From positions 2,518,501 through 2,582,500 of the forward strand of contig CP030158.1 in NCBI GenBank assembly GCA_003285105.1: a stretch of 64,000 nucleotides of DNA, read 5' to 3'. Position 1 is the first letter of the stretch; each line of letters opens with the position of its first letter. This stretch comes from Roseithermus sacchariphilus (GTDB taxonomy: Bacteria > Bacteroidota > Rhodothermia > Rhodothermales > MEBIC09517). Shown one piece after another: positions 40,274 through 50,509 of this stretch. The translations under genes were made by a program, and so were the position numbers. Below the pieces are notes generated by a model. That model made no database searches and was not told the DNA's origin. It saw only the letters and a program-made list of their open reading frames with translations.

Positions 40274-40573
40274 ATGGTCGAAAAGAAACTGAGCCCGAAA
40301 GGGAAGTCGGTGCGGGTCACCTTCGAACTGCCCGCCGACGTGGCAGAGAAGAGCGTGGCCATCGTAGGCGACTTCAACGACTGGGATGCGTCCAAGCATC
40401 CGATGGAGCTCAAGAAGAAGAAGGGCGTGTGGACCAAGACCATCTCGTTGCCGCCCGGCGAGAAATACGAGTTCCGCTACCTCGTCGACAACGCGCAGTG
40501 GCGCAACGACGAGGCGGCCGACGGGTACGTCCCGAATCCGTACTTCGAGGAAAACAGCGTGCTGGAGCTGTAA
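40274..40573 (+). CDS. Glycogen-binding CBM48 / isoamylase early-set domain protein
   Basis: A 99-residue single-domain protein. KSVRVTFELPADVAEKSVAIVGDFNDWD and GVWTKTISLPPGEKYEFRYLVD-AQWRNDEAADGYVPN follow the CBM48/AMPK-beta glycogen-binding pattern, with the Trp and Lys expected to contact glucan. No signal peptide, so cytoplasmic. It likely binds glycogen or acts as a regulatory subunit of a glucan enzyme. The upstream region holds a LacI-type operator and a TATAAT box, consistent with carbohydrate control. It is followed by a terminator and convergent with the metallophosphoesterase gene. Confidence 0.9.
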   Translation: MVEKKLSPKGKSVRVTFELPADVAEKSVAIVGDFNDWDASKHPMELKKKKGVWTKTISLPPGEKYEFRYLVDNAQWRNDEAADGYVPNPYFEENSVLEL

Positions 40574-40665
40574 GGCTCCGGTGGTGCTCCGGCCCTCCGT
40601 CACCTCTCGGCGCCTCCCGATCCGCTCTCCGGCGCCCGGCCGGGTTGCACGGTCCGTATGGCACG

Positions 40666-40710
40666 AGAAGGGTCCCCCGCGCAGGCACCTCGGCGGGGGG
40701 CCCTTTTCTG
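40666..40710 (+). terminator. Terminator between convergent CBM48 and metallophosphoesterase genes
   Basis: AGAAGGGTCCCCCG pairs imperfectly with CGGGGGGCCCTTTTCT and ends in a T-run. It probably serves transcription from both sides. Confidence 0.75.
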
Positions 40711-40729: not shown

Positions 40730-41836
40730 TCAGGGCGTGCGGGCGGCTTCGTGGAGGCGGGCAAAGACCTCGGTCAGCGAGCGTTCGGCCAGGGTTTGCG
40801 GCCGGGGCGCGCCCGCATCGTCGGGCCAGCGGACCAGCCGGATCTGGCCGCCGGCGATCTCGATGCCGGTGATGTCGCCATCGAGGAAGGAGCAGCAGCC
40901 GGTGTTGAAGTAGCAGGGGAGGCTGGGTAGCTCCGGCTCGGAGGCGTCGGGTTCCTGCGTTTCCTGCGCCCGCACCCATTCGCGCTCGGCCTCCAGCGCG
41001 GCCACGCGCCCGCGCCGCTCCGGGTCGTCCGGCGCGGCGGCCAGGGCGGCCCGGGCCTCCTCCAGGTCGGCCTCCAGCGCGGCCAGGTGTGAGGCCGAGG
41101 CGAAGATGGGGCGGTGGGTGTGGCCCACGATCAGGACCAGGGCCTCGTCCGGGGCGGAGGCCTCGGTGTTGCGGCGGCAGACCCAGTGGTACATGCCGTC
41201 GTTGAGCACCTTGCGCAGCTCCCAGCTGGTGGCCGGCGTGTTCACGGAGAGGTTCACGACCCGCTGGATGGGGCGCCAGGCCCAGCGGACGAAGAACTTC
41301 GAGATCGGGGCAAACCAGCCGTCGCTGGTCGAAGAGCCCTGGTGGCCGTGTGCCAGGAAGAGCCGTCCCAGCGGCTCCGCGCCGTCGAACACCTGGAACG
41401 TCATGGCCTCGTGTACGGGCAGGCCAGCGCCGAAGATCGGACCGAGGTAGCGGTCCACGGCGCCCTGGCTGGCCCAGAGGTCGTCGTGGTTGCCCCAGAA
41501 GCGAAGGTAGCGGCGCTCCCGGTGGAAGCGGGCTTCCAGGCGCAGGGAGTAGTCGTACGTGTGCAGGACGGTGCCCGGGCGCTCTTCCCAGAGTTCCTCG
41601 GCATCGCCCAGGACGACCAGGGTATAGCCGAGGCGGAGGTAGTAGGCCAGCGCGGCGTTGTAGGCGCGTTCCGTGCGGCGGAAGTCGTCGGCACCGTCCC
41701 GCGCGCCCCGGTGGAGGTCGGAGAAGATGATGTACCGGTCCGTTGCCAGGTCGATCGGGCGGGGGGCGGCGGACGCCTGGGCGTAGGCCCGGTCCATCTC
41801 ACGGAGGATGCGGTCGAGCTTGCGGGAGGAAGCCAT
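40730..41836 (-). CDS. Metallophosphoesterase
   Basis: A 368-residue calcineurin-like phosphoesterase with the full metal-site series: IIFSDLHRGA, VVLGDAEELWEE, LRFWGNHDDLWAS, FLAHGHQG and IVGHTHRP. The acidic residue after GDA (GDAEEL) instead of GDxxD is unusual but plausible. Residues around 265-300 form a charged coiled coil (LEADLEEARAALAAAPDD). Such enzymes hydrolyse phosphodiesters such as UDP-2,3-diacylglucosamine, glycerophosphodiesters or nucleotides; the substrate is open. It is last in a seven-gene minus-strand run, 81 bases after the patatin gene, so a phospholipid-related substrate is possible. Confidence 0.88.
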   Translation of the reverse strand: MASSRKLDRILREMDRAYAQASAAPRPIDLATDRYIIFSDLHRGARDGADDFRRTERAYNAALAYYLRLGYTLVVLGDAEELWEERPGTVLHTYDYSLRLEARFHRERRYLRFWGNHDDLWASQGAVDRYLGPIFGAGLPVHEAMTFQVFDGAEPLGRLFLAHGHQGSSTSDGWFAPISKFFVRWAWRPIQRVVNLSVNTPATSWELRKVLNDGMYHWVCRRNTEASAPDEALVLIVGHTHRPIFASASHLAALEADLEEARAALAAAPDDPERRGRVAALEAEREWVRAQETQEPDASEPELPSLPCYFNTGCCSFLDGDITGIEIAGGQIRLVRWPDDAGAPRPQTLAERSLTEVFARLHEAARTP

Positions 41837-41917
41837 GGACGAGGTCGAAGGGAGGGGGCGAAGGGCGTTCGGGAGGGTTCCTCGCGGCGGTGCGCCGTCG
41901 GTGGACGATCCGCGCGC

Positions 41918-43468
41918 CTAGGCGTCGGTCTGCGTGTGCTGGGCGTAGCTTTCCCACAGCTCTCCCAGGAAGAACGCCCCGAAGGTCGCCAGCGTGCGGG
42001 CTTTCTCGGTCAGCGCGTCGGTGTGGATGGCACGCATGGTCGAGACGAGCCGGATGAGGTCGCCGACGCCCAGGCTGAGGATGCCGGCGCCGACGACGGG
42101 GGCGTGGCCGTCCGGCCCCCGGTGCAGGGTGGTGAACAGCGTCGTGGTATCCTTCCACAGGTCGAAGCCTGGGTCGTCCCGGATGGTTTTTCGGCCGGCG
42201 AGGTAGTAGTCCTCGTCGCCGTGGCGGAAGGCCAGTTCGTAGACCATGTACTTGGTTTCCGGGTCGTCGGCCGGGGAGAACAGGTTGAAGACCCCTCGGC
42301 GGGCAGGGATGGCCGTGCCGAACGGGGTGAAGTCGATCGTGGCGACGAGCGAGCCGGCGTGGTCGGGGTCGGCGATGAAGCGGGCAAGGTCGTGGATGGT
42401 GATGGTGGCGTGCAGGGCGAGGTGGTGGCCGTCGCGCCGGCCCTGCTCGAAGCCGGTCTGCGGGTCCGACGGGCCGAGGGCGAAGGGGCCTTCCATCGTT
42501 TCGCGGAAGGTGATGCCGGGGTTGGAGGTCAGCATGCGGGTCGTTGCCGGAGTGAAGGGGAGGCCATCGGCCGGGCGCGTTTCGAGGTAGGCCCAGGCCT
42601 CGGCATAGCCCTGGTTGACGAGCGTGGCCCCGTCGACGTCGCCGAAGTAATACGCCGGGTCGAGGGGCAGGGGGAAGGTGGGCTTGATCAGGTGGAGGCG
42701 GATCGGCTCGGTGTGGCCGTAGACCGTCTCGCCCTGCCGGATGCGGTCGTTGATCTCCCGGATCCGGTCGAAGGCGTCGTGGAGGGCTCCGCAGGCACTC
42801 ATCTCGATCATGTGGACGTACTGGTTGAAGAAGCCGTCGCGGTAGACGGGGGTGTTGGCGATGATCCAGACCACCCACAGCTCCTGCGCGCCGCGGCGGA
42901 CGGCGTCGATCAGGTTGGCGTCCTGGATCCAGACGGCGTCGGTGTAGGTCGTCTCCCCCTTGCGCACGGCCGGCATGAACATGGGCAGCGAGACCCCGGC
43001 GACGAGCAGGTCGAGGTCGATGTGCGGGTGGGGGATGGCCTCGTTCACCTTGTCGGTGAAGTTGCACACGTTGAAGGTGGCGTCGATGCCCTCGGCCGTG
43101 CAGATGCGGGCCACGTCGATGCCGAGGTGCGGGAAGACGTCCTCGACGAGGCCGTCGGCATCGCCCATCGCGGCCATGGCGGGGCCACGCAGGTATTCGG
43201 CGAAAGGCATCAACGAGACGAAGTCCCGGACGCGCAGCGTGCGCCATCGCTCACACATGGCTGTGGGCGAGAGGCCGGAGAGCAGCATCGCCAGGTTCAT
43301 GATGCCGCCCGAAGTGCCGTCGGCATGGGTGAAGCAGAGGCCGGCTTCTTCGAGGGCCCGCAACACGCCGGCCTGGTAGGCCACCCGCATACCGCCGCCG
43401 GCCAGGATGAGCGCACGCCGGGGGCCGGTGTAGCCGGCGGGCGGGGTGAGGTAGGGTGTGTGGGGCAT
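41918..43468 (-). CDS. Patatin-like phospholipase with C-terminal extra domain
   Basis: A 516-residue protein. The patatin domain spans residues 17-260: oxyanion loop LILAGGGMRVAYQAG (24-27) and nucleophile elbow GTSGG with Ser53. The catalytic Asp is in QDANLIDAVRRGAQELWVV, where DAN replaces the usual DGG/DGA. Residues 320-470 form a second domain of unknown type (FRETMEGPFALG, LALHATITIHDLARFIAD, GRKTIRDDPGFDLWKDTT), which resembles a beta-rich lipid-binding or cholesterol-oxidase-associated segment. Patatins hydrolyse acyl esters of membrane lipids. It is sixth of seven genes beginning with a GMC oxidoreductase; the gap before it is filled by heptads. Confidence 0.88.
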   Translation of the reverse strand: MPHTPYLTPPAGYTGPRRALILAGGGMRVAYQAGVLRALEEAGLCFTHADGTSGGIMNLAMLLSGLSPTAMCERWRTLRVRDFVSLMPFAEYLRGPAMAAMGDADGLVEDVFPHLGIDVARICTAEGIDATFNVCNFTDKVNEAIPHPHIDLDLLVAGVSLPMFMPAVRKGETTYTDAVWIQDANLIDAVRRGAQELWVVWIIANTPVYRDGFFNQYVHMIEMSACGALHDAFDRIREINDRIRQGETVYGHTEPIRLHLIKPTFPLPLDPAYYFGDVDGATLVNQGYAEAWAYLETRPADGLPFTPATTRMLTSNPGITFRETMEGPFALGPSDPQTGFEQGRRDGHHLALHATITIHDLARFIADPDHAGSLVATIDFTPFGTAIPARRGVFNLFSPADDPETKYMVYELAFRHGDEDYYLAGRKTIRDDPGFDLWKDTTTLFTTLHRGPDGHAPVVGAGILSLGVGDLIRLVSTMRAIHTDALTEKARTLATFGAFFLGELWESYAQHTQTDA

Positions 43469-43470
43469 GG

Positions 43471-43526
43471 GCTTCTGGCTGCGGGCTGCGGGCTTCTGGC
43501 TGATGGCTGACCGCTGACCGCTTCAA
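43471..43526. repeat. Heptad array between membrane-protein and patatin genes
   Basis: Units GCTTCTG GCTGCGG GCTGCGG GCTTCTG GCTGATG GCTGACC GCTGACC GCTTCAA, eight heptads, occupy the gap from the stop of the membrane protein (inside the last unit) to three bases before the patatin start. Confidence 0.92.
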
Positions 43527-43924
43527 AGCAACTGCACGTTGCGTTCGGGTTCGTGGCGGATCATCAGCAGGTAGGCGATCAGCAGGAGCCCGGAGGCGAG
43601 GTCGAAGAACGCCACGGCCATGGCGAGCGGGGAAAACAGGTCGTTCGCCACGCCGAGGGTGACGGCGGCGAAGGCGCCGAGCTTCTGGAGCGCGGCCCAC
43701 AGCAGCACGATGCGGTGGTGGCGCGCCGACACGAGCGCGTGCAGCACCATCCCGCCGAAGAGGGCCATGAACATCCCCACGATGCTGAAGAGGTGCAGGC
43801 TGGTCGGCGTGGCCTCGGCACCGATCAGCCGGAGCACCAGGCCCGGCATCAGCAGCTGCCCGAGCCCGGAGAGGAGCGTGAGGGCCGCGATGACGGCGAC
43901 GATGCGGTAGAGGAGCTGCTTCAT
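43523..43924 (-). CDS. Small integral membrane protein (four segments)
   Basis: A 133-residue hydrophobic protein: MKQLLYRIVAVIAALTLLSG, LHLFSIVGMFMALFGGMVLHAL, LLWAALQKLGAFAAVTLGVA and FFDLASGLLLIAYLLM give four predicted membrane helices. No family is recognised. Its ATG overlaps the stop of the upstream membrane gene, so the two are translationally coupled and probably work together. The frame is open much further upstream in the same frame, but that is the upstream gene region on the same strand out of phase with it. The stop lies inside a heptad array. Confidence 0.75.
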   Translation of the reverse strand: MKQLLYRIVAVIAALTLLSGLGQLLMPGLVLRLIGAEATPTSLHLFSIVGMFMALFGGMVLHALVSARHHRIVLLWAALQKLGAFAAVTLGVANDLFSPLAMAVAFFDLASGLLLIAYLLMIRHEPERNVQLL

Positions 43925-44439
43925 GGCGCGGGCGGGGTCTGGACGTCGGGCAGGTGGTTCCAGGCGTGGATCAGGCGGCCCCGGGCGATGAAGTAGCCCA
44001 TCAGCGCCAGCCACATGATCGTCATGGCGATCCAGCGGACGTCGTTGAGGAACATCCACCGCCGGAGCCGCCGGCTCAGCTCCGCCGGGTCGCTGAGGCC
44101 CGCCGCGATCGACTCGTTGATCGGGATGATCAGCGCCTGCCCCACGACGGTGGACACCGTGATGCCCAGCAATGCCAGCACGGCCAGCCACACCAGCCGG
44201 GTCTTGCGCTCGTAGACGATCAGGATGGCGTTGGTGATGAACATCAGCGGCACCACGATGGTGAAGAAGTCGGTGGCGGCGCTGGTAGGCAGGATGAAGT
44301 GGTCCTGCACGTTGCCCGGGTTCATCACCTCCCAGCTCGGGTACCAGAAGAAGTGCAGAGCCCACAGCACGCCGACGTACACCGTCGTGCCGAAGAAGAG
44401 GTAGGTGTTGTTGATCGCCAGGAGGAGGCCTCGGGTCAT
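43921..44439 (-). CDS. Integral membrane protein of unknown function
   Basis: A 172-residue protein with four or five membrane helices: AINNTYLFFGTTVYVGVLWAL, FFTIVVPLMFITNAILIVYE, WLAVLALLGITVSTVVGQALI and WIAMTIMWLALMGYFIARG. The central stretch VVGQALIIPINESIAAGLSD with a Pro-Ile-Asn-Glu motif resembles small DUF1772-type proteins, but this is uncertain. It is fourth in the GMC-oxidoreductase run and overlaps the next gene by four bases. It could be a subunit in electron transfer or transport for that pathway. Confidence 0.75.
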   Translation of the reverse strand: MTRGLLLAINNTYLFFGTTVYVGVLWALHFFWYPSWEVMNPGNVQDHFILPTSAATDFFTIVVPLMFITNAILIVYERKTRLVWLAVLALLGITVSTVVGQALIIPINESIAAGLSDPAELSRRLRRWMFLNDVRWIAMTIMWLALMGYFIARGRLIHAWNHLPDVQTPPAP

Positions 44440-44484
44440 GACGTCACCTGCGGGTCGGGAGCGGAGGGGGAGATACCGGTGGAA

Positions 44485-45393
44485 TCAGGGCGAAGCGGTG
44501 GCCGGGCGCGGGTGCAGCGCCGGCCAGTCGGGGTTGGGCGGGTCGAGCCACTCCTGCCCGAGGCCCAGGCCGGTGACGCTCTCGAGCCCTTCGGGCGGGG
44601 CGGCCGGGGGGCGGTCGTAGGTCAGGAACCAGCACTCGAAGTAGTCATCCAGGATGCCCCGCGTCTCGGGCATGAAGGCGGTGAAGAGCGGGGCGTCCTC
44701 GATCCCCAGCGTCTTGAGCGGCTGCATGCGCGGGTGGTCCCCCAGGATCAGCCGTGCCCGGGCCTTGCCGAAGAGGCTGAGCTGGATCGAGCCGGAGAAG
44801 TAGATGTAGGACTTCATCAGCATCCCGCGGAACTGGCAGTAGTTCTTCATGCCGATGTTGCGCAGCCGGAGCGTGGGGCTGCGCGGGCGGTCGATCTCGA
44901 TCTTCATGGCGAACTGCCCGTCCTTGTCGTACTGGCTGCTCACCGTCGTGTCGGTGATGACGAAGTCGAGGTTCGCCTGGTGCTTGGGCATGCCCCAGAT
45001 GCCTTTGCCGCCTTTGACGGAGATCTCGGTGCTCACGGGCAGGTCGTAGACGAATTGCCCCGTGCCGAAGGTGTTCATCAGCAGCCCCGGCAGCATCCTG
45101 GGCGCCGGGCGCGGCCCCCGCGTGCAGGCCAGGCCGATGCTGAACTCGATGTACTTGCCGATGTCCGTCACCCGGTAGTCGATCACGGTGATGATGAGCA
45201 GGCCCTTGCCGTTCCACAGGCGGAAGGGGTGCAGTTCGTTACCGGGCATGAGCGCGGCGGCGCGGTCCGCATCGATGGGAAAGCCGGCCATCAGCGCCGG
45301 GGTCTGCTCCGAGTTGATGGGCAGTTGGAACGGGATGCCGTCGACCAGCGCGTGCCGGCCGGCCTGCCGCCGGATGCGTTTGGGAAGGGGCAT
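44485..45393 (-). CDS. Acetoacetate decarboxylase family protein
   Basis: A 302-residue protein of the acetoacetate decarboxylase (ADC) superfamily. Features are QTPALMAGFPIDADRAAALMPG, VIDYRVTDIGKYIEFSIGL, VSTEISVKGGKGIWGMPKHQ, which holds the Lys-containing GxPK-type region, and NLDFVITDTT. Classical ADC uses a Schiff-base Lys to decarboxylate beta-keto acids; many bacterial members are not decarboxylases. The KGIWGMPKHQAN stretch corresponds to the catalytic zone. It lies 12 bases after the hydrolase gene in the GMC run. A role in processing a keto acid product of the oxidoreductase is a reasonable guess. Confidence 0.82.
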   Translation of the reverse strand: MPLPKRIRRQAGRHALVDGIPFQLPINSEQTPALMAGFPIDADRAAALMPGNELHPFRLWNGKGLLIITVIDYRVTDIGKYIEFSIGLACTRGPRPAPRMLPGLLMNTFGTGQFVYDLPVSTEISVKGGKGIWGMPKHQANLDFVITDTTVSSQYDKDGQFAMKIEIDRPRSPTLRLRNIGMKNYCQFRGMLMKSYIYFSGSIQLSLFGKARARLILGDHPRMQPLKTLGIEDAPLFTAFMPETRGILDDYFECWFLTYDRPPAAPPEGLESVTGLGLGQEWLDPPNPDWPALHPRPATASP

Positions 45394-45405
45394 GGGGGCG
45401 TCGGG

Positions 45406-46464
45406 TCAGGGAGCGGGTTGCGGGACAGGCTGGCTCAGGGCGTCGAGCATGAGCGGGAAGACGTCGCGCCCGGCATGGCGCCCCATGAACACGTCGAGGT
45501 GGCCGTAGCCGGGCAGCAGGTGCAGGGTGTGGTAGCCGGGCCGGAGGGCGTCGAAGTAGCGATGGCTGCGGATCTGGCTCTCGGGCAGGAAGCAGCGGTT
45601 GTCCTCCCCGGCGAAGAAGGCGAAACGGGCGGTCGTCTTCGGGCCGGCGGCGGCATAGTCGTCCGGCAGCACGTCGCTCAGCGGCTCGACGGTGACGAGG
45701 TGCCCGGCCCGGATGCAGCGTACGATCTGCCGGTAAAAGGTCATCGGGACGTGGGCGAACTCGTGCCGGAGCCAGTCGTGCGTCGCCTCGTTCAGGTTTT
45801 CGTGGCTCCACAGCGCCGGAAAGCCGCTGCCGTAGGAGAAGCTGACGTGCTTGCAGACGCCGTTGTCGCATTCGTGGTGCGTCAGTTCGACGAGGGCGTC
45901 GATGAGCTTCGGGACGAGGCCGGGCGCCTCGTCGCCCCAGCGGGGGTTCAGATACGGCGTCAGCCGCCGGACGACGGGCAGCAGGTAGGTCAGCTTGAAG
46001 GCCGACCAGCGCGGCACGACGGGGTGCAGCGAGACGGCATTGCTGACGATGGTGGTCACCTGCGGCACGAGGCCGGCCATGGCGGCCATGGTGAAGCTCG
46101 TCGAGCCCTGGCAGTGGATGATGGCTTTGATCGTGGGAGCCCCGGAGGCTTCGGCGACCGTCTCGACGGCCTTCGGATGGTCATAGAGCGCGGCCTGATC
46201 GAGCGTCCACTCGTTGGGTGGCAGGTCGATGCTCGCGCGCCAGTTTTCCAGCCAGACGTCGTAGCCGTCTTCGATCAGCGCATCCACGATGGTCGTCGGC
46301 ACCGGGGCGCGGAAGATGTTCGCCCGCACGCCGGCGCCGTGAACCAGCAGCACCGGCCCTTTGTCGGGCGTCCGGGGGCCGCGGAGGTGGACGAGGGTGC
46401 ATCGCATCCCGTCGCCCGCCGTGAACGGGACGAGGCGTTCGGTATAGCGCCGGGGCGAGGGCAT
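45406..46464 (-). CDS. Alpha/beta hydrolase with Cys nucleophile box, GMC-associated
   Basis: A 352-residue alpha/beta hydrolase. It has LLVHGAGVRANIF (oxyanion), a nucleophile elbow IIHCQGSTSF with Cys118 in place of Ser, an acid in FAGEDNRCFLPE and a His in LPGYGHLDVFMG. The G/H-x-Cys-x-G box is like that of PHA synthases and of the hydrolase domain fused to large GMC (cholesterol-oxidase-like) oxidoreductases in some bacteria. WRASIDLPPNEWTLDQAALYDHP and THHECDNGVCKHVSFSYG fit that group. The gene follows the GMC oxidoreductase, matching the fused arrangement. Confidence 0.85.
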   Translation of the reverse strand: MPSPRRYTERLVPFTAGDGMRCTLVHLRGPRTPDKGPVLLVHGAGVRANIFRAPVPTTIVDALIEDGYDVWLENWRASIDLPPNEWTLDQAALYDHPKAVETVAEASGAPTIKAIIHCQGSTSFTMAAMAGLVPQVTTIVSNAVSLHPVVPRWSAFKLTYLLPVVRRLTPYLNPRWGDEAPGLVPKLIDALVELTHHECDNGVCKHVSFSYGSGFPALWSHENLNEATHDWLRHEFAHVPMTFYRQIVRCIRAGHLVTVEPLSDVLPDDYAAAGPKTTARFAFFAGEDNRCFLPESQIRSHRYFDALRPGYHTLHLLPGYGHLDVFMGRHAGRDVFPLMLDALSQPVPQPAP

Positions 46465-46555
46465 GGTCGGTGCCGGGATGAGCCGGGCGGGATGAGCCGG
46501 GAGGAGCGGGTGGCCGCGTGCGTGGCGGCGCGGGAGACCGCGCGGGAGACGCCGG

Positions 46556-48277
46556 TCAGGCCGAGGCCGGGCGCGGCGCGTCGGAGGGCGCGGCGCGGCG
46601 CGGCGTGGGGCGCTGGTCGAGGATGCGGTCGGCCGTGCGGTTGGCCAGGGCGGCGATGGTCAGCGCCGGGTTGGGCCCGACGGGCCCGGGCATCACCGAG
46701 CCGTCGGCCACGAAAAGGCCGGGGTAGTGGAAGACCTCGCCGTAGGGATCGGTCACGCCCTCCTCGGCGGTTTCTCCCATCGAGCAGCCGCCCAGCGGGT
46801 GGACGGTGACGACGCGGTTGAGGTGCCAGGTCGGGTTGCTGATGAAGCGGGCGCCCCAGGCGTGGGCGATGTCCCGCATGGTGTCGCGGAGCCGGTCGAA
46901 GTAAGGCTTCGAGGCGGCGAGCCGCCAGTCCAGGGCGAGGCGGTTACGATGGAGCGAGAAGGTGCCGTCGGCGATGTCGCGGCCCATGCCGAGCAGAGGC
47001 AGGGAGCTGGCCGAGGCGTGTCCGTGCCCGAGCAGGTCCCTCAGCGTGCCGCTGATGTCCGTCTGCGGGTTGCGGGTGATCGTGGCCCAGAGGCGTTTGA
47101 GCGAATAGCCGACGAGGCGGCGGAGGACGGCCGGGGTGTTGCTCGTCTCCACGATCCAGTTGGCGAAGGCCGGGAGGCCGGCATCTTCGATGTACGCGCC
47201 GCGGCCCGGGGTGCCGTCGCCGTCCAGGGTGTCCGGCAGGCGGATGGCGCTGGTGATGACCGGCCCGAAGCTGGGCGAGAGCACGCGGGGGCGGCCGTCC
47301 TGCCGGGCCCGGTGGGCGAAGGCGAGCAGGTCGCCGTTGCCGCAGAACTGCCGGCCGAGCCGTCGGCTCAGGTGCGGGAAGGCCGCGCGGTTCTTGAGCA
47401 GCAGGAAGGTCGTGCCCAGCGTGCCCGCTGCGAGGATCAGCCGGTCGGTCGTCAGCCGGGTCAGCTCGTCGCGGGCCGGGTGGTGGGAGGGGCGCGTCGG
47501 GTCGTGCCGGGCGTAGAAGACGGCAAAGCCGCCGTCGGTGGGTTCGAAGAAGCGGACCTCGCAGAGCGTGCGCAGGTCCGCACCGTGGTGGCGGGCGGCC
47601 GAGAGGTAGGTGACGTCGAGCGTGTTCTTGCTGCCGTAGTTGCAGCCGATGTCGCATTCGCCGCAGAGCCGGCAGGTGTAGCGCGTCCGGCCGTGCAGGT
47701 TGGGCAGGGCCTCCTCGATGGGTTCGCCGGGGACGGGCGGGCGCCCCTGGTTGGCGAAGGTGACGGCCAGGGGGGGCAGGAGCCAGGGCAGCCCCAGGCG
47801 CCCGGCGGCCTCCTGCATGGCCTGCGTCTTGGGCGTGTGGCGATAGGGCGCGTGGTCGAACGGGTAGCGCTGCACGTTCAGCATGCGCTCGACCTGGTCG
47901 TAGTGCGGGTCGAGGTCCGCCCGGGTGACGGGCCAGTACTCGTAGCCGTCCTGCCGCGGGTCCTCCCGGACGAACCAGCGCTCGTCCTTGCGGAGGTGGA
48001 CGTTGGCGTAGATCAGCGACCCCCCGCCCAGGCCGCTGCCGACGATGGCTTCGATGCCCCGGAAGGACCAGACGTTGAACAGCCCGTAGAGCCCCTCGCT
48101 GGGGTCCCAGACGTTGCGGCTCATCTCATAGGGGCTGCGCGGGTACGAGCCGGGCGGATACGGGCGGCCGCGCTCCAGCACACACACGCGCAGGCCGGCC
48201 TCGGCCAGCCGGTAGGCGGTCACGGACCCGCCGAACCCGGAGCCGACGATGACGGCGTCGAAATGGGTGTCGGACAT
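46556..48277 (-). CDS. GMC-family (cholesterol-oxidase-like) FAD oxidoreductase
   Basis: A 573-residue flavoprotein. The FAD-binding N-terminus is DAVIVGSGFGGSVTAYRLAEAG; the GMC signature is in IVGSGLGGGSLIYANVHLRK; further FAD contacts are PNPALTIAALANRTADRIL and the HPLGGCSMG stretch. The cysteine-rich segment RYTCRLCGECDIGCNYGSKN is characteristic of cholesterol-oxidase-like and bacterial GMC enzymes. It probably oxidises a hydroxyl of a sterol-like, terpenoid or lipid substrate. ATG at 48277 (MSDTHFDAVIVGSG) is chosen; an upstream Met 28 codons earlier is rejected. It opens a seven-gene run. Confidence 0.9.
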   Translation of the reverse strand: MSDTHFDAVIVGSGFGGSVTAYRLAEAGLRVCVLERGRPYPPGSYPRSPYEMSRNVWDPSEGLYGLFNVWSFRGIEAIVGSGLGGGSLIYANVHLRKDERWFVREDPRQDGYEYWPVTRADLDPHYDQVERMLNVQRYPFDHAPYRHTPKTQAMQEAAGRLGLPWLLPPLAVTFANQGRPPVPGEPIEEALPNLHGRTRYTCRLCGECDIGCNYGSKNTLDVTYLSAARHHGADLRTLCEVRFFEPTDGGFAVFYARHDPTRPSHHPARDELTRLTTDRLILAAGTLGTTFLLLKNRAAFPHLSRRLGRQFCGNGDLLAFAHRARQDGRPRVLSPSFGPVITSAIRLPDTLDGDGTPGRGAYIEDAGLPAFANWIVETSNTPAVLRRLVGYSLKRLWATITRNPQTDISGTLRDLLGHGHASASSLPLLGMGRDIADGTFSLHRNRLALDWRLAASKPYFDRLRDTMRDIAHAWGARFISNPTWHLNRVVTVHPLGGCSMGETAEEGVTDPYGEVFHYPGLFVADGSVMPGPVGPNPALTIAALANRTADRILDQRPTPRRAAPSDAPRPASA

Positions 48278-48459
48278 GACAGGGAGACGTGAGGGACGGG
48301 CGGCGGGCTGCCATGAGGCGCGCGCCCGGGGAGGGAAGGGCGTGGGGTACAGAAGTGCCATGGCGGCCCCACATGCGCCAACCCGGACTCCCTCATAGTC
48401 GGGGCCTTTCCCTACAGATGCAAGCCGACGAGGAGATATTCAGCGGTCAGGGGCGGCGG

Positions 48460-49002
48460 TCAGCCAAAGAGCCAGCGGACGACGTAGACGGCCAGGAAGA
48501 GGGCGACGACGTCGGCGATGAGGCCGGCGGCCACGGCGTGGCGGGTCTTCTTGACGCCGACGGCGCCGAAGTAGACGGCGATCACGTAGAAGGTCGTCTC
48601 CGTCGAGCCGAACATGGTGGCCGCCATCTTTACCAGCAGCGAATCCTCGCCGTACTGGTTGATCATGTCCAGCACGATGGCGGCCGAACCGGAGCCGGTC
48701 AGCGGGCGGAGGATCATCATGGGCAGCACCTCCGAGGGCACGCCGATGAAGCCCAGCACCGGCCGCAGCCCGTCGATCAGGAAGTCCATCGCCCCGGAAG
48801 CCCGGAACATGCCGATGGCGAACAGGATGGCGACCAGGTAGGGGATGATCGTCACGGCGATGCTGAAGCCGTCCTTCGCGCCTTCGACGAACTCTTCGTA
48901 GACGGGTACCTTCTTGTACAGCCCGTAGAGAGGAAACCCGACGATGAGCAGGGGCAGGACGAAGACGGAGACGACGTCGATGACGGTGCGGAGGGTGTCC
49001 AT
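48460..49002 (-). CDS. spmB: Spore maturation protein B homologue (SpmB)
   Basis: A 180-residue membrane protein. It begins MDTLRTVIDVVSVFVLPLLIVG and carries the nucleoside-recognition (Gate) domain pattern: YEEFVEGAKDGFSIAVTIIPYLVAILFAIGMFR, LPMMILRPLTGSGSAAIVLD and FGSTETTFYVIAVYFGAVG-KKTRHA. SpmB is found in non-sporulating Bacteroidota, where its role is unknown, possibly transport. The reading frame continues upstream, but only through a heptad array, so MDTL is the start. spmA lies upstream on the same strand, with a 538-base repeat-rich gap between. Confidence 0.92.
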   Translation of the reverse strand: MDTLRTVIDVVSVFVLPLLIVGFPLYGLYKKVPVYEEFVEGAKDGFSIAVTIIPYLVAILFAIGMFRASGAMDFLIDGLRPVLGFIGVPSEVLPMMILRPLTGSGSAAIVLDMINQYGEDSLLVKMAATMFGSTETTFYVIAVYFGAVGVKKTRHAVAAGLIADVVALFLAVYVVRWLFG

Positions 49003-49007
49003 GGGAC

Positions 49008-49098
49008 GTGTCGAATGTCGAGTGGCGAGTGGCGAATGGCGAGTGTCGAGTGTAGAGTGTCGAATGTAGAGTGGCGAGTGGCGAGTGGCGAGTGTCAA
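49008..49098. repeat. Heptad array (GTGGCGA type), 13 units
   Basis: Thirteen 7-bp units of forms GTGGCGA, GTGTCGA, ATGTCGA, GTGTAGA and ATGGCGA lie six bases upstream of the spmB start on the minus strand. In one minus-strand frame it reads as repetitive (TRHSPL-like) peptide without a real gene. Confidence 0.92.
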
Positions 49099-49169
49099 AC
49101 GGGTGTTACGCTGCGGGTGATGGAGCCGCTACGTTTCTTTCCCTTCGCTACCGCTCCATTGTGCTGGAT

Positions 49170-49193
49170 CCCCGATCGAGTCGGGGATGTCGG
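49170..49193. repeat. Half-copy of the GGATCCCCGATC palindromic element
   Basis: GGATCCCCGATCGAGTCGGGGATG is related to the left arm of the inverted-repeat element at 53425. It is a short stem, part of the repeat-rich gap between spmB and spmA. Confidence 0.5.
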
Positions 49194-49253
49194 CTGCATA
49201 GGCACGAGGGGGCTCATCCGCCCCATTCCGTGAATACCTGTTCCTGTGAGCAG

Positions 49254-49398
49254 GAGAAGGGGCGGTGTCGCGCCGCGACGGAGGGGTAGCCCCTCGGCGA
49301 GGGCGGCACAGCGGCGGGTGTTGACCCCCTTCCCCCTGCGGGGACTTCCCCCTGATCGGCCTGCGGCCAGGGGGAAGAACTCGTTCCGGCACGAAGCC
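49254..49398 (+). repeat. Dispersed element copy A (about 145 bp)
   Basis: Begins GAGAAGGGGCGGTGTCGCG, continues through GTTGACCCCCTTCCCCCTGC and ends GAACTCGTTCCGGCACGAAGC. Two further copies lie at 53987 and 57281 (the latter inverted). A partial second copy follows at 49417-49457. Internal palindromes are short and GC-rich. Confidence 0.9.
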
Positions 49399-49416
49399 GC
49401 AAACCAGATCCTCCCC

Positions 49417-49457
49417 TTGCGAAGGGGAGGTGTCGCGCAGCGACGGAGGGGTAGCCC
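49417..49457 (+). repeat. Partial copy of the dispersed element
   Basis: TTGCGAAGGGGAGGTGTCGC and AGCGACGGAGGGGTAGCCC repeat the left end of the dispersed element directly after copy A. Confidence 0.75.
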
Positions 49458-49490
49458 TCCCACGGGATAGATCTCGACAGCGTAACATCG

Positions 49491-49525
49491 GTGTCGGATG
49501 TGAATGTGGAGTGGCGAGTGGGCTA
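49491..49525. repeat. Short heptad array before spmA stop
   Basis: Degenerate 7-bp units (GTGTCGG ATGTGAA TGTGGAG TGGCGAG) close the repeat-rich gap between spmA and spmB. Confidence 0.7.
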
Positions 49526-49540
49526 AGGTTTGCCTGCCTC

Positions 49541-50509
49541 TCAGTTCTCCCTGTTCGGGTCCGTGGCGCGGAAGGCAGGGAGGCGGCCCAGGAGTTTGGC
49601 GGCGGTGATGGCGACGATGAGCGAGCAGAGCGTGACGATGATGATGGCGAAGATGAGCTGGTTGATCTGCAGACCCATGATCGCCACGAGCAGCACCGGC
49701 GGCACGAGCTGCACGCTGGCCGTGTTCATCGCCAGCAGCATCACCATCGGGTTCGTCGCGGTGTCCTTGACCGGGTTGAGTTTTTGCAGCTCCTCCATCG
49801 CCTTGATGCCCAGCGGGGTGGCGGCGTTGCCCAGCCCGAGGATGTTGGCCGTCAGGTTCAGCACGATCATGCCCATGGCCGGGTGGCCCTTCGGGATCTC
49901 GGGAAAGAGGGGCCGTAGCAGCGGCTGCGTGACGCGGACGAGGGCGTGGACGAGGCCGGACGTCTCGGCGATGCGCAGCAGGCCCGTCCACAGCGCGATG
50001 GCGCCGATCAGCCCGAGGGCGAGCGTCACGGCCGTCTCGGCGAGGCTGAAGGCGGCTTCGGTGATGGCGGTCATCTTCACGAAGCGCACCGGCGGGAAGG
50101 TCACCGTGGTCGCGGCCAGCGAGTCGCCCTGCAGGGCCAGCGGGGTGACGATGCCGCGCAGGTCGTTGTCGCGGGCGGAGGTCATGCGCCGGATGGTGTC
50201 CAGCGGCTCGGGGACGCCGGCATCGCGGGCGAAGCGGAGCTGCCGGCCGTCGGCGGTCTGCACGAGGACCCCCTCGTAGGCGGCCGTCGGCGCGGCCGTC
50301 GTGCCGTAGAAGGCCCGGTAGGCCTCGGCGTCGATGGTCACGGCGACGGGCACGCGGCGGGCCTCCGGGTCGTAGCCCCGGGGGAAGTGGAGCGTGACCG
50401 GCAGCGGCTGGTCGTTGCGGTAGGTGTCGCGGGCGAGATCCCGTACGTCCGAGACGAGCGCGAAGACGAGGCTGAAGAGGATGAGCCCGGCCCAGATGTA
50501 GTTCAGCAT
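49541..50509 (-). CDS. spmA: Spore maturation protein A homologue (SpmA) with N-terminal insertion
   Basis: A 322-residue membrane protein of the SpmA/nucleoside-recognition family. The first helix MLNYIWAGLILFSLVFALVS is followed by about 100 polar residues (DVRDLARDTYRNDQPLPVTL to SLAATTVTFPPVRF), absent in Bacillus SpmA (about 195 residues). From residue 125 the family core resumes: ITEAAFSLAETAVTLALGLIG, LRIAETSGLVHAL, LPLFPEIPKGHPAMGMIVLNLTANILGLGNAATPLGIKAM and MNTASVQLVPP. The insertion is probably periplasmic. Same strand and family context as spmB, though separated by repeat DNA. Confidence 0.92.
   Translation of the reverse strand: MLNYIWAGLILFSLVFALVSDVRDLARDTYRNDQPLPVTLHFPRGYDPEARRVPVAVTIDAEAYRAFYGTTAAPTAAYEGVLVQTADGRQLRFARDAGVPEPLDTIRRMTSARDNDLRGIVTPLALQGDSLAATTVTFPPVRFVKMTAITEAAFSLAETAVTLALGLIGAIALWTGLLRIAETSGLVHALVRVTQPLLRPLFPEIPKGHPAMGMIVLNLTANILGLGNAATPLGIKAMEELQKLNPVKDTATNPMVMLLAMNTASVQLVPPVLLVAIMGLQINQLIFAIIIVTLCSLIVAITAAKLLGRLPAFRATDPNREN

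Follow-up and report, generated by a model that had tools for sequence, protein, structure and literature searches.

A seven-gene enzyme cluster with a shared CTD domain in Roseithermus sacchariphilus and its counterparts in ten bacterial phyla

Do seven closely spaced genes of different enzyme families in Roseithermus sacchariphilus belong to one metabolic system and, if so, on what kind of substrate might it act? The genes occupy positions 40730-48277 on the minus strand of a 64,000-nucleotide stretch of contig CP030158.1 (hereafter the window). In the direction of transcription, they encode a GMC flavoprotein, an alpha/beta hydrolase (ABH), an acetoacetate-decarboxylase-like (ADC-like) protein, two membrane proteins (MP1 and MP2), a patatin-like acyl hydrolase and a calcineurin-like metallophosphoesterase. 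An earlier note on this DNA had read the run as a candidate lipid pathway, and its seven open reading frames (ORFs), separated by 91, 12, 45, -4, 54 and 81 bases, were reproduced here exactly. We find that these families recur together in ten phyla and that the genes almost certainly act as one system, for which a lipid-like substrate and a tentative reaction order are proposed.

Recurrence of the gene set across phyla

Scanning one genome per species (84,980 species) yielded 162 relatives of ABH, of which 80 were retrieved. The relatives are found in Pseudomonadota, Myxococcota, Acidobacteriota, Actinomycetota, Cyanobacteriota, Bacteroidota, Balneolota, Nitrospirota, Rhodothermota and Gemmatimonadota. 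Full flanks were available for 56 loci, in which the ~10 kb fetched on each side of ABH contained CTD (a domain described below) in 54 cases, GMC in 52, ADC in 49, patatin in 43, metallophosphoesterase in 31, MP2 in 22 and MP1 in 17. Because these loci were collected via ABH and ordered by how closely they resemble the window, the partner frequencies apply to close ABH orthologues. All seven families, in rearranged order, are present in the genomes G295 (locus L099) and G172 (L100) and on an Arthrobacter plasmid (L089). The order is phosphoesterase, GMC-CTD, ABH, ADC, MP1, MP2 and patatin-CTD in G295, and ABH, ADC, MP1, MP2, patatin, phosphoesterase and GMC-CTD in G172. The possibility that gene order is kept only in very close relatives, which the earlier note had set as grounds for abandoning its proposal, is clearly contradicted by this conservation across phyla.

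Close to the host, ABH is scarce, being present in two of 60 relatives and in 4/394 genomes of its own phylum. Independent searches with ABH and CTD returned the identical four of these 394 genomes; one of the four is the window itself and one carries a fusion, so that the independent part of this test amounts to two out of two genomes. Furthermore, the distance matrices of the partner families are correlated in every pair (rho 0.27-0.70, above all 300 permutations), a pattern that genes moving largely as a group would produce. Because the partners recur in ten phyla and ABH and CTD share the same four genomes, the arrangement is more than chance, and the comparison of genomes identifies a real and widely shared system; the genes belong together, as had been proposed. 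A fortuitous one-direction run of unrelated genes might be suspected from the view of a single genome alone, and a promoter scan of the locus found no sigma-70 consensus, but such an origin is contradicted by the cross-phylum conservation, the gene fusions and the shared CTD, and we consider it extremely improbable.

The cluster is patchy across genomes and is plasmid-borne in some hosts. The ABH tree needs 16 changes of phylum compared with a minimum of nine, and many of its deep branches are weak, so that the tree alone is no proof; horizontal transfer of the cluster is nevertheless likely from these comparisons. Several families of differing sequence occupy the phosphoesterase position (fam4 in 24 loci, fam8 in eight and fam15 in six), which suggests that the activity, and not a particular protein, is needed by the system.

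Some loci have unusual neighbors. A distant ABH relative (27-28% identity) occurs on Rhodococcus pyridinivorans plasmids, and in the one such plasmid opened (L093, 1-11485) it adjoins a type I polyketide synthase and a thioester reductase protein. Beside the cluster in Nostocaceae lies a protein of odd architecture, similar to family-1 glycosyl hydrolases and split by an extracellular solute-binding (SBP_bac_3) domain (L035, 14227-16473; also L032, L034, L040 and L046). In eight gammaproteobacterial loci (L009, L011, L012, L014, L021, L022, L030 and L031), the last gene, following the phosphoesterase, encodes a CHAT-domain protein (PF12770) of ~655 aa (e.g. L011, 17003-18961).

Patatin phospholipases are known defense effectors. 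Together with these terminal CHAT proteins, the patchy distribution and the plasmid location, this would fit a stress or conflict module in which patatin, phosphoesterase and the gammaproteobacterial CHAT protein are effectors, with GMC, ADC and ABH producing or sensing a lipid signal. However, the seven proteins have no strong match in PADLOC-DB (only E 0.0014 and 0.0079), the enzymes are of metabolic type and have kept their catalytic residues, neither a sensor nor a synthase for a nucleotide signal was seen, and among the loci examined CHAT is limited to a single clade. We therefore regard such a module as unlikely. A known anti-phage defense system is ruled against by the lack of a strong PADLOC match.

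The CTD domain

The patatin gene (41918-43468; 516 aa) encodes two domains. The Pfam Patatin match (70.7 bits, cutoff 27.7) spans residues 20-181 only, and the last ~200 residues, encoded at 41921-42520 on the minus strand, constitute CTD, whose consensus is FxETMxGxFxLG..DP..G. This domain was overlooked in the earlier note, and it turns out to accompany the hydrolase in more of the full-flank loci (54/56) than any other partner does. CTD occurs in five architectures, including the C-terminus of patatin and standalone proteins of about 200-220 aa, such as the 202-aa ones of L015 and L016; it is also found at either end of GMC, as the N-terminal part of an ABH protein, and as the middle segment of a single chain that starts with GMC and ends with ABH. 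Single-chain GMC-CTD-ABH fusions are present in L066 (1300 aa), L037 (1139 aa), L101 (1138 aa), L091 and L092, and thus the GMC-hydrolase fusion that the earlier note had mentioned for some bacteria is real. The ORFs in these loci were called mechanically, and some fusion lengths (e.g. those of the Corallococcus MP2-patatin chains) may include upstream read-through. The fusion in L092 (1-10014) is carried by a conjugative plasmid of Rhizobium leguminosarum, a few kilobases from phaC/phaE and near a CoA-transferase.

No family match to CTD was found in Pfam, NCBIfam or PHROGs, and no sequence match in the PDB. Its AlphaFold model (pLDDT 93.8, pTM 0.88) is beta-rich with helices. A search of this fold against 350,542 PDB chains gave no convincing match (best E 0.023; TM ≤0.36 among the hits listed), with weak echoes of ADC-fold proteins and calycin-like barrels. 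CTD thus appears to be undescribed in the sources searched; InterPro and CDD were outside the comparison, so that it may already bear a name there.

Predicted chemistry of the enzymes

The GMC gene (46556-48277; 573 aa) is well above the Pfam GMC_oxred_C/N cutoff (62.8 bits against 24.6). A further in-frame ATG lies upstream at 48361, and homology begins near residue 6 at the flavin adenine dinucleotide (FAD) motif, GSGFGG. No export signal is evident by eye, the protein starting directly at the FAD domain. The catalytic pair His493/Asn536 is present in all 68 homologues compared. The nearest solved structures by profile are cholesterol oxidases (3cnj, 1b4v and 1coy; E 3e-66), which have the GMC/FAD fold and the His/Asn pair in common with it, and in overall sequence the protein is nearer to cholesterol oxidase than to the iron-sulfur (Fe-S) FAD dehydrogenases. 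However, it reaches only 208.2 bits against the cholesterol oxidase model NF058674 of NCBIfam, for which the equivalog cutoff is 850, and it has a motif, C202-x5-C208-x3-C212, whose cysteines are absent from the aligned cholesterol oxidases. Cys202, Cys208 and Cys212 are conserved in 69/69 homologues and C205 in 60/69. In the FAD-GDH of B. cepacia, Cys212, Cys218 and Cys222 bind a [3Fe-4S] cluster, and the spacing of the cysteines (+6/+4) is the same (PMC6719666). Residues 202-212 (47642-47674, minus strand) are therefore a candidate [3Fe-4S] site, and the GMC fold is common to our protein, B. cepacia FAD-GDH (6a2u) and fructose dehydrogenase (8jej). Fe-S FAD dehydrogenases have adjacent cytochrome c and hitchhiker subunits, whereas neither family was found among the seven cluster proteins in Pfam and NCBIfam searches. 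Because three invariant cysteines match those of the [3Fe-4S] flavin dehydrogenases and are lacking in the aligned cholesterol oxidases, the protein is most likely an electron-transferring dehydrogenase and not a cholesterol oxidase, and it probably transfers electrons through an Fe-S cluster. The designation "cholesterol-oxidase-like", given previously, thus fits the protein's ancestry and probably not its function.

This ancestry bears on the idea that the cluster serves sterol or hopanoid metabolism, in which GMC would oxidize the 3-hydroxyl of a polycyclic triterpenoid, the ADC-like protein would remove a carboxyl group made beta-keto thereby, and ABH and patatin would split steryl or hopanoid esters; in a variant, exogenous sterols would be used. 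Besides the relationship of GMC to cholesterol oxidases, lysosomal acid lipase/cholesteryl ester hydrolase is among the nearest solved folds of ABH, and a squalene-hopene/oxidosqualene cyclase domain scored above cutoff in 25 of the 50 genomes searched. However, profile searches did not detect the cyclase domain in the window's own single-contig genome, nor in half of the carriers, and the cholesterol oxidase cutoff is missed by a wide margin. Such a function seems to us improbable.

The ABH gene (45406-46464) encodes 352 aa and is a marginal Pfam match (26.2 bits, cutoff 25.8). The cysteine nucleophile recognized in the earlier note is borne out, since Cys118, in an HCQGS box (HCxGS across homologues), is invariant in all 87 sequences, as are Asn289, His322 and Asp324. 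In the AlphaFold model (pLDDT 95.1), Cys118 follows the strand at 112-117, Asn289 that at 280-286 and His322 that at 313-317. By strand position and conservation, these three residues are predicted to stand where this fold normally has its nucleophile, acid and histidine. The best fold and profile matches are acid lipases, namely gastric (1hlg/1k8q) and lysosomal (6v7n), the latter being the cholesteryl ester hydrolase mentioned above (TM 0.67-0.75; top Foldseek E 1e-15 to 3e-13). The acid lipases, at about 15-17% identity, have a serine nucleophile and a canonical acid, in contrast to the invariant Cys and Asn289 of ABH. Because ABH folds like these lipases, a hydrophobic substrate for the system is plausible.

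A cysteine nucleophile is also a feature of the polyhydroxyalkanoate (PHA) synthase PhaC, another alpha/beta hydrolase, which ABH matches weakly by profile. With the fusion near phaC/phaE on the R. leguminosarum plasmid, this likeness would agree with a role in mobilizing stored PHA, wax esters or triacylglycerol, in which ABH and patatin would depolymerize the storage lipid, GMC would oxidize the released 3-hydroxyacid or alcohol, and ADC would decarboxylate the product. However, ABH scores 16.1 bits against the PhaC subfamily model, far below the cutoff of 365.3, and its HCQGS box differs. Profile searches of the window's genome detected neither PhaC_N nor WS/DGAT domains, which were found in only 8/25 and 9/50 carriers, respectively. 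We judge this possibility to be still less probable than a sterol or hopanoid function. For the host itself, endogenous hopanoids or sterols, wax esters or triacylglycerol, and PHA are all disfavored as substrates, because domains for their synthesis were not detected in its genome.

The ADC-like protein (44485-45393; 302 aa) exceeds the Pfam cutoff of the acetoacetate decarboxylase family PF06314 (45.8 bits against 29.8), which includes MppR and other aldolase-type members. Its candidate Schiff-base lysine, Lys137 in IWGMPKH, is conserved in 71/71 sequences, and the segment aligns weakly (E 0.57) with IWGFPKK of a solved ADC (PDB 3c8w). In ≥90% of the sequences, the second lysine of the PKK motif of acetoacetate decarboxylase is replaced by histidine (His138 here). 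In acetoacetate decarboxylase, this second lysine, beside the Schiff-base lysine, lowers the pKa.

The patatin retains GGGxR, the GxSxG serine (Ser53) and Asp177 of the patatin-like phospholipases (PF01734), with Ser53 and Asp177 present in 56/56 sequences, and differs from them in carrying CTD. The phosphoesterase (40730-41836; 368 aa) had no match in Pfam or the PDB and was assigned by its motifs only (DLH40, GD77, GNHD115 and GHTH238), which are those of calcineurin-like metallophosphoesterases. MP1 (43921-44439; 172 aa) has hydrophobic segments and weakly resembles DUF1772/anthrone oxygenase, with an Anthrone_oxy match below the Pfam threshold. MP2 (43523-43924; 133 aa), which overlaps MP1 by four bases, has four hydrophobic segments and no Pfam match. 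No conserved histidine pair for heme is found among the invariant residues of the two membrane proteins, and MP1 and MP2 occur in only 17 and 22 of the 56 full-flank loci, respectively; the role of carrier or electron acceptor that the earlier note had suggested for them gains no support here.

A proposed reaction scheme and its setting

Comparison of the sequences shows that the genes co-occur across phyla, that some of them are fused, and that four of the enzymes keep their catalytic residues without exception. On this basis we propose that GMC would oxidize an alcohol of the substrate to a ketone, passing the electrons via its [3Fe-4S] cluster to an acceptor other than oxygen. Lys137 of the ADC-like protein would then form a Schiff base with this ketone, for a step of decarboxylation or retro-aldol type in which a neighboring C-C bond is broken or rearranged. 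Two enzymes, the lipase-fold Cys hydrolase (Cys-His-Asn) and patatin (Ser-Asp), would move acyl groups or set them free, and the phosphoesterase would take off a phosphate. CTD, which is fused in different proteins to patatin, to GMC or to the hydrolase, would serve all of them as a module for presenting or handling the substrate, dock the enzymes together or be an enzyme itself.

Placing GMC before ADC is chemically sensible, because GMC would make a ketone from an alcohol and an ADC-type enzyme needs a ketone for its Schiff base; we hold this order tentatively, the balance tilting slightly against it. A bolder reading, for which our confidence is lower again, makes CTD a new domain, with a fold unmatched among solved structures, at the core of an undescribed lipid pathway, in company with an Fe-S GMC dehydrogenase, a Cys-His-Asn acyl enzyme of lipase fold and a Schiff-base ADC-like enzyme; CTD would then bind the substrate or itself convert it, for example as an isomerase or cyclase. 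The proposal as a whole, namely a single enzyme system of seven genes that spreads horizontally, acts on a lipid-like substrate and works by the mechanism above, is one that we consider evenly poised between right and wrong. Of the shared lipid pathway first suggested for this locus, the grouping of the genes in a real system stands, while deacylation and a single hydrophobic substrate may or may not prove correct.

Transcript data from R. sacchariphilus RA (Rhodothermales), which we count in favor of the system, concern a GMC gene and a patatin gene. On xylan, the GMC gene AWN76_007025 rose 1.88-fold and the patatin gene AWN76_007050 rose 2.70-fold; of the eight auxiliary-activity genes listed, none but these two rose, and three other GMC genes fell to 0.43-0.60 (PMC7409140). 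The two are five locus-tag steps apart, the same spacing as between GMC and patatin in the window. The patatin AWN76_007050 was listed by the authors as AA3, a GMC category (PMC7409140), a label that could be explained by the CTD that patatin shares with the GMC fusions.

Several points weigh against the proposed scheme. Near relatives, such as several Corallococcus, Nostoc and Nitrosomonas, are over-represented among the loci. Membership is flexible, with MP1, MP2, patatin and sometimes ADC missing from many loci, and the chemistry may therefore differ between clades. Since His138 replaces the second lysine, the reaction of the ADC-like protein need not be decarboxylation. The cluster genes include no cytochrome or other electron acceptor, the link to the RA transcripts is made by locus-tag spacing and not by sequence comparison, and the literature searched yielded no biochemical data on any member.

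The run is flanked on one side by a convergent gene for a 99-aa CBM48-like protein (40274-40573, plus strand), and on the other, upstream and on the same strand as the cluster, by two genes for Gate-domain (PF07670; nucleoside-recognition) membrane proteins (48460-50509), which resemble an SpmA/SpmB-like pair. Just 3' of the cluster, a GC-rich hairpin (40662-40705) is a weak candidate for a terminator common to the cluster and the CBM48-like gene; it folds, yet its z of -0.93 against shuffles is unremarkable and a terminator scan did not flag it. No RNA element or riboswitch was matched in Rfam.

The enzyme families are known, and the system appears to be undescribed in the sources searched: no description of this combination of families was found in the literature searched, subscription papers lying outside the search, and the paper on the lipocone superfamily (PMC12419801) makes no mention of GMC or acetoacetate. 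If our proposal is true, free-living bacteria from at least ten phyla possess a whole metabolic system whose genes have until now been annotated one at a time, as "GMC oxidoreductase", "alpha/beta hydrolase" or "patatin"; its carriers include methanotrophs, nitrifiers, cyanobacteria, myxobacteria, Acidobacteriota and Rhodothermota. CTD would provide a single marker for finding the system, and with the GMC-CTD-ABH fusions (about 1140-1300 aa), its function could be tested on a single polypeptide. It would also be unusual to see a Cys-His-Asn hydrolase with an acid-lipase scaffold paired with an adjacent Fe-S GMC dehydrogenase.

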